NCBI GenBank assembly: GCA_944386545.1
Contig: CALXBK010000001.1
Coordinates: forward strand, 62,001-126,000
DNA: 64,000 nucleotides
Origin: an uncultured Ruminiclostridium sp.
GTDB taxonomy: Bacteria; Bacillota; Clostridia; Oscillospirales; Ruminococcaceae
Direction: 5' to 3'
Shown here: positions 4,556 to 34,417 of the stretch, in pieces
How the letters are laid out: every line of letters begins with the position of its first letter
Position numbering within the stretch: the stretch's first letter is position 1
Made by a program: the position numbers and the translations under genes
The notes under the pieces: model-generated
Database searches by the model: none
Told to the model about the DNA's origin: nothing
Seen by the model: only the letters and a program-made list of their open reading frames with translations

Positions 4556-4583
4556 CGCAGCTTCGCTGCGGCTTGCCACGTTG

Positions 4584-4609
4584 AATGACGGGGCAAGCCC
4601 CTTATTGAA
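4584..4609. repeat. Dispersed 26-bp palindromic repeat, copy 1
   Basis: The unit is AATGAC, then the core GGGGCAAGCCCC, then TTATTGAA. It is identical at 4608-4633, 28008-28033 and 49581-49606. The core can form a GGGG/CCCC stem. Confidence 0.9.
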
Positions 4610-4633
4610 TGACGGGGCAAGCCCCTTATTGAA
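4608..4633. repeat. Dispersed 26-bp palindromic repeat, copy 2
   Basis: This copy is identical to copy 1 and shares its last two bases, so the two form a head-to-tail tandem. Confidence 0.9.
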
Positions 4634-15126: not shown

Positions 15127-15431
15127 GTTTACCTGAGCCTGATTATGTCCTGATTTGGGCGTAACGGCGGGGTGTGCGGTAGTTTTACCGTTCGCATAAT
15201 TATGAAATCATAGCGAAAGCTGTAATTTAAACGGGCGGCGTGTTTTGTCAAAAAGGCGGTCAGTGGCTGTGAAAACAGTCGGCGGTGCTGTCGCAAGGTC
15301 GGTCGGCGGCTGTGAAAACGGTCGTCGGTGCTGTCGGAAAGGCGGCAGGGCTGTTGCAAAGGCGGCAAGGCTGTCGGAAATAGCGGCAAACGCTGTCGGA
15401 GGATTTACAATTACGGTCAGGAGGTGACAGC
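15127..15431 (+). promoter_or_regulatory. Long structured leader of rpmE
   Basis: About 300 transcribed but apparently untranslated bases separate the promoter from rpmE. The first half has a possible GCGGT...ACCGT hairpin near 15175-15195. The second half is a G-rich array of degenerate repeats of about 43 bases (15255-15402). Ribosomal protein L31 mRNAs often carry autoregulatory leaders in Firmicutes. That this is one is an inference, since I cannot match it to a defined leader structure. Confidence 0.5.
15255..15402. repeat. Degenerate 41-43-bp tandem repeats in the rpmE leader
   Basis: GGCTGTGAAAAC occurs at 15265 and 15308 (period 43). More diverged units beginning GGCTGTTGCAAAGGC and GGCTGTCGGAAA follow from 15348 to 15402. 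The strand is strikingly purine/G-rich. Open frames across it are an effect of composition and have no ribosome binding site. Confidence 0.75.
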
Positions 15432-15635
15432 ATGAAAGAGGGTATCCATCCCAACTACCAGGCAACCACTATCAAGTGTGCTTGCGGCGAGGTTATCGAA
15501 ACAAAGTCAACTAAGCAGGATATAAAGGTAGAAATCTGCTCAAAGTGCCATCCTTTCTTTACAGGTAAGCAGAAGCTGGTTGATACAGGCGGACGAGTTG
15601 ACAAGTTCAAGAAGAAGTACAATCTCGGCAAGTAA
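15432..15635 (+). CDS. rpmE: 50S ribosomal protein L31
   Basis: This 67-residue zinc-binding (C+) type L31 starts [21 protein letters not shown], with Cys at 16 and 18 and a second Cys pair in [14 protein letters not shown]. It ends with the conserved [10 protein letters not shown] tail. It sits in the central protuberance of the large subunit and bridges to the small subunit. The ribosome binding site is AGGAGG. A terminator follows at 15663-15697. Confidence 0.98.
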
Positions 15636-15697: not shown

Positions 15698-15777
15698 TTT
15701 AATGTTAATAATAAGCGCATATAATATTTTACACGGTTTCAGTATGTTTGAAAATCTGTCGAAACGGAGGTCGGTAT

Positions 15778-16452
15778 ATGTTTGTTATAATGGTAGCCGA
15801 GGACGATCCCAACACAAGAAAGCTGATGTGCACCGTTCTTTCCCAGAACGGGTATGAGCCTGTTCCCGCAACGGACGGAGAGGATGCGCTCGAAATAATG
15901 GACAGACAGCACGTTGACCTTATACTGCTTGATGTGATGATGCCGAAAATGGACGGCTATGAGTTTGTTAAAACACTGCGTGAGGGCGGCTGTAACATAC
16001 CCGTGCTTATGGTTACGGCAAGGGAAACCTCTGCGGATAAGATCGCGGGCTTTAAGGCGGGTACGGACGACTATATGGTAAAGCCCGTCGATGAAGAGGA
16101 AATGCTGCTGAGAATTTCCGCCCTGTTAAGACGAAGCCGCATAGCAAACGAGCATAAGCTAACCGCGGGGGATACCGTGCTTGACTATGACGCGCTTACG
16201 GTGACCTGCGGAAATGAAGCCTATGAGCTGCCCAACAAGGAATTTATGCTGCTGTTCAAGCTGCTGTCCTATCAGAATAAGATTTTCACAAGGCGACAGC
16301 TTATGGACGAGCTTTGGGATATGGAGTCGGAAACCGACGAAAGAACGATAGACGTGCATATAAACAGATTAAGAGAGCGTTTCAGGGATAATAAGGATTT
16401 TGAGATAGTCACCGTGAGAGGACTTGGCTATAAGGCGGTAATTAAAAAGTAA
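15778..16452 (+). CDS. Two-component response regulator, OmpR family
   Basis: This 224-residue protein has an N-terminal receiver domain, with acidic pocket EDD (8-10), phosphoacceptor D52 in LLDVMMPKMDG and Lys in VKPVDEEE (about 102). A C-terminal winged-helix DNA-binding domain follows (NKEFMLLFKLLSYQ...TVRGLGYKAV). The ATG at 15778 follows GGAGG (15766-15770), so an upstream TTG is rejected. It pairs with the histidine kinase at 16832, from which it is separated by 380 bases of tandem repeats. The fused ABC exporter downstream is the likely target. Confidence 0.95.
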   Translation: MFVIMVAEDDPNTRKLMCTVLSQNGYEPVPATDGEDALEIMDRQHVDLILLDVMMPKMDGYEFVKTLREGGCNIPVLMVTARETSADKIAGFKAGTDDYMVKPVDEEEMLLRISALLRRSRIANEHKLTAGDTVLDYDALTVTCGNEAYELPNKEFMLLFKLLSYQNKIFTRRQLMDELWDMESETDERTIDVHINRLRERFRDNKDFEIVTVRGLGYKAVIKK

Positions 16453-16466
16453 GCCTGTGCGAATAT

Positions 16467-16830
16467 GAAATGTCAGCGGCGACTTTGCCGTTATTAATAT
16501 GCGAATAACGTTCAGCGGCGTATGCCGCCGAGGGCGCTGCCAAACTATCAGTAAAAAGAAACGATGCTGCGCCCGAGAAATGTCAGCGGCGACTTGCCGT
16601 TATTAATATGCGAATAACGTTCAGCGGCGTATGCCGCCGAGGGCGCTGCCAAACTATCAGTAAAAAGAAACGATGCTGCGCCCGAGAAATGTCAGCGGCG
16701 ACTTGCCGTTATTAATATGCGAATAACGTTCAGCGGCGTATGCCGCCGAGGGCGCTGCCAAACAATCAGTAAAAACAAACGATGTTGCGCCCGAGAAATG
16801 TCAGCGGCGACCCGCCGCCGAAGGGGTAGG
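16467..16830. repeat. 109-bp tandem repeats between response regulator and kinase
   Basis: The unit start GAAATGTCAGCGGCGAC recurs at 16467, 16577, 16686 and 16795. This gives three full units (period 110, 109, 109, the first with one extra T) and a truncated fourth that runs into the kinase ribosome binding site. The units are nearly identical; the third differs at a few positions. Each unit contains two hairpins, CGTTATT/AATAACG and CGGC/GCCG, so the RNA would be highly structured. The period is not a multiple of three and I see no gene in this interval. Confidence 0.95.
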
Positions 16831-16831
16831 A

Positions 16832-17968
16832 ATGCAGAGAAAAATGAACGGTGAAGAACAAAAACGCTATCGCTCGATAAACGCCTATGTTGTGGCATTT
16901 GTATTTATCATAATGATTTCGGCGGGCGGAATATGCGTCATAATTTTGAATATACTCAACGCTGTCGGATTCGTGGGCTACATGAGAGTACCGCCTATGA
17001 TTTTGCCGGTGATAATGCTGTGTGCCTGTATCATAATCGGAAGCGTGCTTTCCGCAATGCTGTCGGGCATACTCTTAAAGCCGCTTAAGGAGCTTAAAGA
17101 CGGACTTGAACGGGTTGCGGGCGGCGATTTTTCCGTAAGGCTTGAAAAGAGCGAAAACTTTGAAATCGCAAAGATACAGGAGAGCTTTAACATAATGGCG
17201 GGGGAGCTGAGCAACACCGAGCTGTTCAGAAACGACTTTATCAACGACTTCTCCCACGAGTTCAAAACCCCGATGGTTTCTGTGCTCGGCTTTGCGAAGC
17301 AGCTTAAAAAGGGTGGGCTTACGAAAGAGCAGGAGCATGAATACATCGACATCATCATATCCGAATCTCAGCGGCTGATAAATATGTCAACCAATATTCT
17401 TATGCTCAACAAGCTTGAAAATCAGCAGATAATAACCGATAAGCAGGATTTTTCGCTGGACGAGGAGCTGAGAAGGTGCATACTTCTGCTTGAGCCGCAC
17501 TGGAGCGCAAAACAGCTTGAAGTAGAGCCTGAGCTTGACAGGATAACCTATTTCGGCAACAGCGAGATGCTACAGCAGGTATGGCTGAATGTCATATCAA
17601 ATGCGATAAAATACACCGAGGCGGGCGGCAAAATAGAAGTGCGCCTTGATATAAACCCCAAAAACGCCAACGAGGTGCGTATTGCCGTATGCGATAACGG
17701 TATCGGCATGGACAATACAACGGCACAGAGAATTTTTGAAAAATTCTATCAGGGTGACAGCTCAAGAGCAACAGGCGGCAACGGGCTGGGCTTATCCCTT
17801 GCAAAGCGCATAGTGGAGCTTTGCGGCGGCAGAATAACCGTAAAAAGCGAGCTTGGCAAGGGCACGGACTTTTATATCTTCCTTCCTGTTGAAGCAAAGG
17901 AGAAAAAAGAGGAAAAGAAGAAAAGGTCTGCAAATTCCGTTAATACTGCGGGACTAAAGGGCAATTAG
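16832..17968 (+). CDS. Sensor histidine kinase
   Basis: This 378-residue membrane kinase has two membrane helices (about 17-43 and 55-83) separated by a very short external loop, so it probably senses within the membrane or through a partner. A HAMP linker (about 80-130) follows, then a HisKA domain with phosphorylated H142 in SHEFKTP and an HATPase_c domain with NVISNAIKY, DNGIGM and GLGLSLAKRI. The Lys/Glu-rich tail is unstructured. The short-loop design and the ABC exporter downstream resemble antibiotic-peptide sensing systems, but this is inference. Confidence 0.94.
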   Translation: MQRKMNGEEQKRYRSINAYVVAFVFIIMISAGGICVIILNILNAVGFVGYMRVPPMILPVIMLCACIIIGSVLSAMLSGILLKPLKELKDGLERVAGGDFSVRLEKSENFEIAKIQESFNIMAGELSNTELFRNDFINDFSHEFKTPMVSVLGFAKQLKKGGLTKEQEHEYIDIIISESQRLINMSTNILMLNKLENQQIITDKQDFSLDEELRRCILLLEPHWSAKQLEVEPELDRITYFGNSEMLQQVWLNVISNAIKYTEAGGKIEVRLDINPKNANEVRIAVCDNGIGMDNTTAQRIFEKFYQGDSSRATGGNGLGLSLAKRIVELCGGRITVKSELGKGTDFYIFLPVEAKEKKEEKKKRSANSVNTAGLKGN

Positions 17969-18008: not shown

Positions 18009-20666
18009 ATGCTTCAGTTAAAAGGCATAACTAAGGACTATGAGCTTGGCAACAGCAAGGTAGAGGCGCTCAGAGGGGTTTCCCTTGATTTCAGAGAAAG
18101 CGAATTTGTTGCTGTTTTAGGTCCTTCGGGCTGCGGCAAGACGACCTTGCTCAACATTATAGGCGGTCTTGACAGCTATACAAAAGGTGACCTCATTATC
18201 GGAGGAAAATCCACAAAGGATTACAAAAGCTCGGACTGGGACACTTACAGAAACCACTCTATCGGCTTTGTATTCCAGAGCTACAATCTTATCCCGCACC
18301 AGACGGTACTCTCAAACGTCGAGCTTGCGCTGACGCTTTCGGGCGTTTCAAAGGCGGAGCGCAGAAAGCGTGCAAAGGAAGCGCTTAAAAAGGTGGGACT
18401 GGGCGACCAGATGAACAAAAAGCCCAATCAGATGTCGGGCGGTCAGATGCAGAGAGTAGCAATTGCAAGAGCGCTGGTAAACAATCCCGATATACTGCTT
18501 GCCGACGAGCCGACGGGCGCACTTGACAGCGAAACCAGCGTGCAGATTATGAATTTGCTGAGGGATATTTCCAAAGACAAGCTGATAATCATGGTAACGC
18601 ACAACCCCGACCTTGCCGAAGAATATTCCAACCGTATCATAAGACTGCTTGACGGCAAGGTGGTTGACGATACCAACCCCTACGACAGAAATGTTGTCGA
18701 GCCTATCGAAAAGAAAAAACAGCCGAAGCAGAAAAAGCCCTCGATGTCATATCTGACGGCCTTGTCGCTCAGTCTTAATAACCTCATGACAAAAAAAGCG
18801 CGTACCATTATGACATCGTTTGCGGGAAGCATAGGTATCATCGGCATTGCGCTCATTCTTGCAATTTCTCACGGCGCACAGCTTTACATCAACTCCGTTG
18901 AGGAAAACACCCTCGCAAGCTACCCCATAACCATAAACAGCAACAGCCTGGATATGACCTCAATGATGTCGAGTATGATGCAGGCGAACAAGGGAGAAGT
19001 AAAAGAGGACGGCAAGATACACTCCAACAACATAATGAGCAATATGGTAAATACCATGCTCACACAGATGAGAACAAATGACCTGAAGGCTTTCCGTGAA
19101 TATATTTTAGGCGAAGGCTCGAAGATAACCGAATACACAAGCGACATAAAGTATTCCTATTCAACGCCGTTGAATGTTTTCAGACTTGACGAAAACGGCG
19201 ATACCGTGCAGGTAAACCCCGCACAGCTTATGAACGAGCTGGGAATGTCAAACTCCGTGACAGGCTCACAGCTCATGAGCAGCATTATGACCAATTACGA
19301 TGTGTGGACAGAGCTTATAAATAATGACGAGCTTCTCTCAAACCAGTACGAGGTGGTTACGGGAAGAATGCCGCAGGAGTACAACGAAGTCGTTATCATG
19401 GTAAGCAAGAACAATCAGATTTCCGACTATGCGCTGTATTGTCTGGGACTTATGGACAGCGACGAACTTATCGAGGCGGTGCAGAACGCACTTGCAGGCA
19501 AGCAGCAGGAAATTGATTTTGAAGCCGAGGAGCAGAGCTATACCCTTGATGAGCTTATGGCGCTTGAATTTAAGCTTCTTACCAACAGCGACTTTTATGC
19601 CGAGGAAAACGGCGTATGGGTGGATAAGAGCGAGGACGACATCTACATGGCTCAGAAGGTGAGAGACGCCGAAACCATTAAGGTGGTAGGCGTTGTGCGC
19701 CCGACCGATAACGCTCTTTTGCAAAGCGAGGCAAATCTGCCTGTTGTGGGATATACCCATGCGCTGACCGAATACCTTGTTGAAAAGAACGGCAACGGCG
19801 AGGTCGTAAAGGCACAGCAGGATAACCCCGACATTGATATTTTCACAGGCCTTGAATTTCCCAAGGAGGGAGAAGAAAAGGCCGAGATTACCATGGAAAT
19901 GATACAGCAGTACATCATGACGCTTTCTCCCGAGGAGCAGGCAGCCGCACAGGAAAAGATAGCCCAGGCACAGCAGATGGGCATGACCGAACAGCAGATA
20001 CTTGAAGCTTTTGCAAAGCAGATGGGAATGTTGCAGACGGAAGCAACCTATGACTCCAACATGGAGAAGTTAGGCGTGGCGTCGGTAGATCAGCCCAGCA
20101 TGATAAGCATATACCCCAAGGATTTTGACTCCAAGGAAAAGATAGAGGAAATAATAAACGAGTACAACGACAAGGTAGCGGCTGACGGCAACGAGGCTCT
20201 CAAAATCCGCTACACCGATATTGTCGGACTTATGATGAGCTCCGTTTCGGATATTATCGACACGATAAGCGTTATACTCATCGCCTTTGTAGCAATCTCA
20301 CTCGTGGTATCCTCTATAATGATAGGAATTATCACCTACATCTCCGTGCTTGAAAGAACAAAGGAGATAGGCATACTGCGTGCCATGGGTGCGTCCAAGC
20401 GGGATATTTCAAGAGTGTTCAACGCCGAAACTCTTATTGTGGGTTTTACCGCGGGTGCGATGGGAATTATAGTGACACTGCTGCTGCTTATTCCCGCAAA
20501 CGCAATCGTACAAAACCTCACGGGCATAGCAGGTCTTTGCGTACTGCCGTGGGAGGGCGGAGTTGCTCTTGTTGTAATAAGCATGCTCCTTACCCTTATC
20601 GCAGGCTTTATCCCCTCTAAGATGGCGGCAAAGAAGGACCCCGTTGCGGCTTTGCGCTCAGAATAA
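18009..20666 (+). CDS. MacB-like ABC transporter, fused ATPase and FtsX-type permease
   Basis: This 885-residue protein joins an N-terminal ABC ATPase to a permease. The ATPase has Walker A GPSGCGKT (38-45), a Q-loop FQSYNLI, the signature MSGGQMQRVAIARAL and Walker B ILLADEPTGALD. The permease has one membrane helix near 265-290, a large extracytoplasmic domain of about 450 residues containing Gln/Glu-rich helices, and three C-terminal helices with the FtsX motif (ERTKEIGILRAMGASKRDI). Such proteins act as mechanotransmitters or exporters of peptides and lipids rather than importers. It lies 40 bases after the kinase gene and is probably co-transcribed with the two-component system. The substrate is unknown. 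Confidence 0.93.
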   Translation: MLQLKGITKDYELGNSKVEALRGVSLDFRESEFVAVLGPSGCGKTTLLNIIGGLDSYTKGDLIIGGKSTKDYKSSDWDTYRNHSIGFVFQSYNLIPHQTVLSNVELALTLSGVSKAERRKRAKEALKKVGLGDQMNKKPNQMSGGQMQRVAIARALVNNPDILLADEPTGALDSETSVQIMNLLRDISKDKLIIMVTHNPDLAEEYSNRIIRLLDGKVVDDTNPYDRNVVEPIEKKKQPKQKKPSMSYLTALSLSLNNLMTKKARTIMTSFAGSIGIIGIALILAISHGAQLYINSVEENTLASYPITINSNSLDMTSMMSSMMQANKGEVKEDGKIHSNNIMSNMVNTMLTQMRTNDLKAFREYILGEGSKITEYTSDIKYSYSTPLNVFRLDENGDTVQVNPAQLMNELGMSNSVTGSQLMSSIMTNYDVWTELINNDELLSNQYEVVTGRMPQEYNEVVIMVSKNNQISDYALYCLGLMDSDELIEAVQNALAGKQQEIDFEAEEQSYTLDELMALEFKLLTNSDFYAEENGVWVDKSEDDIYMAQKVRDAETIKVVGVVRPTDNALLQSEANLPVVGYTHALTEYLVEKNGNGEVVKAQQDNPDIDIFTGLEFPKEGEEKAEITMEMIQQYIMTLSPEEQAAAQEKIAQAQQMGMTEQQILEAFAKQMGMLQTEATYDSNMEKLGVASVDQPSMISIYPKDFDSKEKIEEIINEYNDKVAADGNEALKIRYTDIVGLMMSSVSDIIDTISVILIAFVAISLVVSSIMIGIITYISVLERTKEIGILRAMGASKRDISRVFNAETLIVGFTAGAMGIIVTLLLLIPANAIVQNLTGIAGLCVLPWEGGVALVVISMLLTLIAGFIPSKMAAKKDPVAALRSE

Positions 20667-33547: not shown

Positions 33548-34417
33548 TTATCTTCTTGCCTCGCCCCTGATAACTATGCCGATTACATAAGGGCCTGTGT
33601 TGCTTGCAACAGCTGCGCCTGCGGTGCTTATCATTGCGGGCGCTCTGCCTGTCTTTGCGGTGTACTGCCTTATAAATTCGTCCTCCTGCTCGGGCATACA
33701 GGTACGAAGCACCTGCCAGGGCGTTTCGGGGATTGCACGGGAGGAAATATATTCAACCGCATCGCTTATCGCGTTTTTCTCGCCCCTTGATTTCTTTACA
33801 ACCGCACTTTCTCCGTCAATAAGGGAGATAAGGGGTTTAAGTCCCATAAGCTCGCCCAGGAACGCCGCCGCCGCACTTATTCTGCCCGACTTTTTCATGT
33901 GGCGCAGACCGAAGCCTATGAGATAAATCTCGCAGTTGTTGAACATATCGTTGAGATATGCGATTACCATGTCTATATCCTGTCCCGCTTCAAGCTTCTT
34001 TGCCGCTTCGACAAGGGGGTAGCCGTAGCCGACGGAGTAGCAATGGCTGTCGAGAATTTCTATCCTCATCTTTGCCGCTTCCGGATGCTTCGCAAGGAAG
34101 GTTTCCTTTGCAAGCACCGCATTTTCATACGTCTTTGAGCCGGTTGAATTTATCAGCACGAAGATAAGCGCATCATAGCCCTCCTCGTAATACTTCATGA
34201 ACTTTTCCTCAAAGCGGATTGTCGTAATCTGAGAGGTTTTGGGGATATACTCCGATTTGTCTATCATCTCAAGAAATTCCTGCGGAGTAAAGTCAACTCT
34301 TTCTCTGAGGCTTTTATCGCCGAGAGTGATGTCGAACGGCATAACGTCTATGCCGTATCTTAGTTCCTCTGCCGCGGGCAGGTCGCTTGCGCTGTCGGTA
34401 ATTAGCTTGATTTTCAT
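33548..34417 (-). CDS. DegV family fatty-acid-binding protein
   Basis: This 289-residue two-domain protein has LITDSASDLPAA at the start, IPKTSQITTIRFEEKF and the conserved YLIGFGLRHMKKSGRISAAAAFLG segment. Family members (FakB/DegV) bind a fatty acid and present it to the kinase FakA, which feeds exogenous fatty acids into phospholipid synthesis. No FakA kinase is in the window. It lies 51 bases after trmL on the same strand. Confidence 0.93.
   Translation of the reverse strand: MKIKLITDSASDLPAAEELRYGIDVMPFDITLGDKSLRERVDFTPQEFLEMIDKSEYIPKTSQITTIRFEEKFMKYYEEGYDALIFVLINSTGSKTYENAVLAKETFLAKHPEAAKMRIEILDSHCYSVGYGYPLVEAAKKLEAGQDIDMVIAYLNDMFNNCEIYLIGFGLRHMKKSGRISAAAAFLGELMGLKPLISLIDGESAVVKKSRGEKNAISDAVEYISSRAIPETPWQVLRTCMPEQEDEFIRQYTAKTGRAPAMISTAGAAVASNTGPYVIGIVIRGEARR

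Follow-up and report, generated by a model that had tools for sequence, protein, structure and literature searches.

Tandem hairpin repeats between the regulator and kinase genes of a Ruminiclostridium two-component operon: a probable local expansion of a dispersed intergenic repeat

Two to three 77-bp MIRU (mycobacterial interspersed repetitive units) are located between the two-component genes of the senX3-regX3 operon of M. tuberculosis; their number depends on the strain, and they are reported to have promoter activity (PMC4213456). The BOX elements of Streptococcus pneumoniae (boxA-boxBn-boxC) are dispersed, hairpin-forming intergenic repeats in which the number of tandem modules varies (PMC3049150). 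REP/BIME elements are short extragenic palindromes, many of them about 15 nt or less from a stop codon, with compensatory changes in their stems (PMC12306157, PMC2817692) and a GTAG/GTGG head (PMC2817692). These kinds of repeat, above all MIRU, are the nearest known to the array described here. It is located in a stretch of 64,000 nucleotides from an uncultured Ruminiclostridium sp., referred to as the window, and separates a response regulator gene from its kinase gene as follows.

15778..16452, + strand: response regulator of the OmpR/PhoB type (Pfam PF00072, Response_reg, and PF00486, Trans_reg_C), with an alternative open TTG start at 15748
16467..16576, + strand: repeat unit 1, 110 bp, with one extra T
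16577..16685, + strand: repeat unit 2, 109 bp
16686..16794, + strand: repeat unit 3, 109 bp, 96-97% identical to the other units, with several substitutions
16795..16818, + strand: partial unit 4, GAAATGTCAGCGGCGACCCGCCGC, containing a full palindromic hairpin Y, GCGGCG ACC CGCCGC, at 16804-16818
16821..16826, + strand: likely Shine-Dalgarno sequence of the kinase, AAGGGG, assigned from the sequence, just beyond the array
16832..17968, + strand: sensor histidine kinase (Pfam HAMP, HisKA and HATPase_c)
18009..20666, + strand: MacB-like ABC transporter, an ATPase fused to an FtsX-type permease (Pfam PF00005, ABC_tran, and PF02687, FtsX)

Tandem Repeats Finder reports positions 16467-16811 as a tandem repeat with a period of 109, 3.2 copies, 98% matches and a score of 660. 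The repeat search finds copies of 115 nt starting at 16485 (100% identity), 16594 (100%) and 16703 (96%), and the pairwise identity of the three units (110, 109 and 109 bp) is 96-99%. There are 14 bases between the regulator stop (16452) and the array, and 13 between the array and the kinase ATG (16832). An earlier note on this DNA had described three near-identical units of about 109 bp and a partial fourth between regulator and kinase, which both repeat programs and the Pfam assignments confirm. It was also right that the array ends at the ribosome binding site of the kinase (array to 16818, AAGGGG at 16821-16826) and that the unit length of 109 is no multiple of three. Very probably, one member of a family of short intergenic repeats, interspersed in genomes across the genus, was inserted at this site in the lineage and subsequently multiplied there.

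The exact 109-bp unit is present solely at the window locus in the 1.99 Mb draft genome. The search for it also gave two short partial matches elsewhere, which led to a dispersed repeat family. These two matches have more in common than expected, namely GTTCRGCGGCG-NAN-GCCGCCGAGGGCGC, followed by a variable loop and then TGCGCCCGAGA. A first covariance model (R1), built from these sequences, found two more tandem arrays on contig 5, one at 34355, 34470 and 34585 (period 115) and one at 71239 and 71379 (period 140). Its weak matches in the own genome turned out to be further family members; those in relatives were rejected as mostly chance, being located inside genes or in other hairpins. A second model (R2), consisting of stem X, the linker GAGAACAGTC and hairpin Y, was built from 11 members. 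It found 17 copies at 11 loci with E below 1e-6, a rough value, as are all E-values of R1 and R2. Three of these loci (C17:7817, C1:159161 and C5:71065) are outside the training set, and R2 also revealed a fourth array, of period 138, on contig 11. The family is dispersed, and tandem arrays stand at four of its 11 loci, with periods of 109, 115, 138 and 140 bp. The other family loci are near flagellar genes, tRNAs and a methyltransferase gene, and no signalling genes were found there. Since the exact unit occurs at one locus only, the case for descent of the window array from the dispersed repeats is built on the core, a family unit composed of stem X (about 5-6 bp around a loop of 30-40 nt), a GAAYWGTC-type linker and hairpin Y (AGCGGCGACNCGCCGC). 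The window holds three core copies.

16526..16603, + strand: core copy 1 (stem X, linker GAGAAATGTC, hairpin Y), R2 E 4.4e-15
16624..16637, + strand: small hairpin GCGGC-GTAT-GCCGC ahead of stem X in unit 2
16635..16712, + strand: core copy 2, R2 E 4.4e-15, with the X stem at 16641-16646 pairing with 16678-16683
16744..16821, + strand: core copy 3, ending with the full hairpin Y, R2 E 6.4e-17

The small GCGGC-GTAT-GCCGC hairpin is common to the window units and to the members at C1:12963 and C5:54891.

Two further repeats in the window were observed. Directly 5' of an apparent gene for ribosomal protein L31 (ATG near 15432), the leader at 15251-15398 contains imperfect GC-rich repeats (CGGTCGGCGGCTGTGAAAAC.., 20-43 nt), for which Rfam gives no match. 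At 4581-4633, TTGAATGACGGGGCAAGCCCCTTA is present in 2.2 copies and forms a small hairpin; a similar sequence, GATGGGGCAAGCCCCATATTGAAG, adjoins a contig 5 array (L078 near 2710), and the resemblance suggests another dispersed hairpin family.

The earlier note had ascribed two hairpins to each unit and proposed folding one unit. A single window unit folds barely better than shuffled sequence (z -1.4, with 20 of 200 shuffles as good), a slight excess, and the comparison between members therefore carries the claim for the stems. In stem X, 97% of cells are paired among 11 members, with GC and AU alternatives at two pairs and both sides changed. In hairpin Y, 87% of cells are paired in the same number of members, and one pair shows a CG/GC exchange. 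If the partner is slid by 1 to 3 columns, pairing falls from 92% to at most 56%. Across the genus, a perfect 5-bp stem X with 35-42 nt between its arms is found in 28 of 75 copies, against about 2 in shuffles, and occurs with six stem sequences. The sequences standing ahead of the linker in relatives include CCGCC/GGCGG, CCGACC/GGTCGG, CCGGCC/GGCCGG and CTCGCC/GGCGAG. The stems covary, and two hairpins per unit are plausible on this comparison, in spite of the slight folding excess of the lone unit.

Of the 71 genomes of the genus that were compared, one per species, 19 contain the hairpin Y signature GAANNGTCAGCGGCGACNCGCCGC (at most two mismatches), at a maximum of 15 copies per genome, and the reversed-pattern control gave 1 match. 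Hairpin Y of partial unit 4 matches this genus-wide signature exactly. In the family-level sample, one genome of another genus (G158) contains the signature in 22 copies. Tandem arrays recur in the relatives G039 (about 100 bp), G066 (100), G057 (112), G033 (100) and G014 (135). In G158 (L217-L243), the hairpin Y copies have a different upstream part (CCGCGACAGAAACG...TGCTGGATTTCCGACGC), and some are in tandem. G014 also contains modular strings of different hairpins (e.g. L158 and L211), each after GGCGGAATTT or GGTCGGAATTT, which suggests that hairpin modules with several stem sequences have one linker in common. Beyond these genomes, a search of about 85,000 named genomes for the exact X-stem pattern gave 34 matches; practically all came from unrelated organisms, and they were put down to chance. 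A BLASTN search of phage and plasmid sequences gave no match, and the hairpin Y pattern was absent from the viral contigs. A description of the family was not found in the literature searched, the coverage of which was partial.

The elements show a placement bias relative to genes. Many copies have the outer edge of hairpin Y no more than 60 nt from the end of a gene. In 29 of 34 such cases, that gene runs antisense to the element and turns its stop towards it, frequently at 0-10 nt from the edge (p 4e-5, kinship ignored). Some of the 34 cases are tandem copies or sites that are orthologous between related species; with the obvious ones collapsed by hand, the ratio is about 24 to 5, still unlike even odds. 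In the own genome, the Y end is at an antisense stop in nine of 11 loci, as assigned by eye. Genes were called by ORF length, and single placement assignments may be wrong. Two members, L078 2566-2643 and L083 3751-3839, reach into the 3' end of a gene, in one case for a methyltransferase and in the other for a radical-SAM protein, and provide its last codons and stop. The exceptions to the antisense-stop placement are the window array and an array between fliJ and fliK, both of which are in sense orientation between genes. The window array is thus among the minority oriented with the next gene and may have a selected role at this site.

The sites of these two arrays are empty in relatives. 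The gap between regulator and kinase is without the array in 11 congeners that have the gene pair, as the comparison with related genomes proposed in the earlier note has brought out, and the window array is therefore a lineage-specific insertion. Nine of the 11 gaps measure about 10-25 nt, and the other two (G030 and G035) are longer, about 70-100 nt, with unrelated sequence. The G035 gap (L030) contains an unrelated hairpin of its own (AAAGTCTGAAAACAAATTTTTCAGACTTT) and that of G030 (L029) is longer than usual; structured spacers at the regulator-kinase junction may have arisen more than once. The fliJ-fliK gap is likewise without the array in all six congeners with a readable gap. In the own genome, the array there (L077 3155-3215) stands directly ahead of a TTGACA promoter box conserved upstream of fliK in relatives, and its insertion may affect this promoter. 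Units are 93-100% identical inside arrays and 26-66% identical between arrays; the 80% within array 78 results from the register chosen, its second unit being cut short. Near-identity within arrays and divergence between them indicate local amplification. The earlier note had read near-identity as a sign of recent expansion, and both this contrast and the array-free congeners bear it out. Most simply read, each site would have received a single insertion, which then multiplied locally.

The direct Y repeats that flank the copies may allow local multiplication through slippage or unequal exchange, and some mechanism would have spread the family. No mobilising enzyme was identified among the Y1 transposases, the only ones checked. 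A MITE would have terminal inverted repeats matching a resident IS; the repeat search reported no inverted repeats within the 701-bp region, and the transposases checked were those of the Y1 family. In the regulator-kinase mRNA, the array would act mainly passively: where the gap is otherwise about 20 nt, there would be about 380 nt of structured untranslated RNA. Such a long spacer would uncouple the translation of the two genes, and a mild attenuation or stabilisation of the transcript could follow. Mild effects of this kind are reported for other interspersed repeats inside operons. The most defensible effect on the operon is the replaced gap, which would end any translational coupling. A chain of small overlapping ORFs in the array (MRITFSGVCRRG..., with TAATATG junctions) was considered as a means of such coupling, but it is missing from the other arrays and was therefore put aside as coincidence.

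A more far-reaching proposal holds that the repeat is an undescribed, non-autonomous, tandem-prone X-Y element which settles at antisense stops and, when sense-oriented in operons, forms a copy-number-variable spacer changing the expression ratio. The window array and the array ahead of fliK are the examples in sense orientation; the proposal as a whole is rather unlikely. The earlier note had suggested that the array may be a tunable switch. Its copy number would vary in the population and set the kinase-to-regulator ratio, by way of RNA stability, attenuation or translation, thereby tuning the ABC exporter. The position between regulator and kinase, the near-identity of the copies and the strong folding of the 388-nt spacer taken as a whole (z -2.05) agree with this. 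Precedents exist as well, since the tandem MIRU between senX3 and regX3 are strain-variable and carry promoter activity (PMC4213456), and the number of boxB modules varies and affects expression (PMC3049150). However, the scan of the window array detected no promoter-like site, a difference from MIRU, and no sense-strand terminator-like site. For the kinase Shine-Dalgarno sequence, the folding prediction gives a nearly constant probability of being unpaired, 0.59-0.74 over 0 to 4 units, so that no effect of copy number is predicted at the kinase start. According to the earlier note itself, many copies scattered through the genome without a link to signalling genes would speak against the switch. 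The exact unit proved to be confined to the operon, but the core is found at ten other loci without such a link, which largely answers the question against it. A dedicated switch for the kinase or exporter is improbable, remains unproven and is not favoured.

The resemblance to MIRU and BOX is one of arrangement. MIRU and the X-Y family both consist of dispersed repeats arranged directly in tandem, with units from tens of bp up to about 100 bp and one set inside a two-component operon, but the X-Y family is defined by covarying hairpins, often at antisense stops, and no sequence relation is claimed. BOX, like the X-Y family, is dispersed, intergenic and hairpin-forming with a tandem module. 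In BOX, however, the middle module alone is repeated between fixed boxA and boxC, whereas the X-Y array repeats the whole unit head to tail and ends in hairpin Y; host group and sequence also differ.

The covarying stems, together with the conserved linker and the constant loop length, could also point to a structured functional RNA family, selected as a cis element or small RNA and located in mRNA leaders and tails. Against this, Rfam gave no match to the element copies in the searched loci at either gathering or permissive thresholds. The gene contexts are mixed, the majority of copies have their neighbouring gene on the opposite strand, and the distribution is patchy (19 of 71 species). Such a family is therefore quite improbable.

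Strictly defined REP elements, mobilised by a REP-associated tyrosine transposase (RAYT), are a still poorer match. They share with the X-Y elements the short extragenic palindrome close to stop codons, the compensatory changes in it and a conserved 5' head, and Y1 transposases are present in some of the genomes. However, the head differs, a GAAYWGTC-type linker ahead of hairpin Y taking the place of GTAG/GTGG, and the long-loop stem X is additional. Among eight Y1 loci in genomes with the element (own genome, G014, G009, G025, G031, G039, G057 and G066), none has hairpin Y in the flanks examined and no flanked RAYT gene was found, and G158, of another genus, has its 22 copies without any Y1 transposase. 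Copies number tens or fewer, compared with over 100 for REP/BIME, and arrays are direct (head-to-tail) rather than alternating. The head and the Y1 transposase evidence mostly refute this origin in these genomes, and its probability is very low. A wrong number of tandem units is the least credible explanation: the genome is a 56-contig draft, and the exact copy number of a 345-bp array of near-identical copies could therefore be mis-assembled, but the units can be told apart by the additional T of unit 1 and the several substitutions of unit 3, the contig has a length of 166 kb, and similar arrays are found at independent loci and in other assemblies.

The insertion and local multiplication of a dispersed intergenic repeat, the preferred reading, adds an apparently undescribed, tandem-prone hairpin repeat family to a genus with poorly annotated intergenic regions. 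After senX3-regX3, it provides a second, independent instance of tandem intergenic repeats in a two-component operon. The X-Y arrays could be used as strain-typing markers. Placement next to stop codons and tandem growth recur in many species, which makes the spread and multiplication of these repeats testable by comparison.
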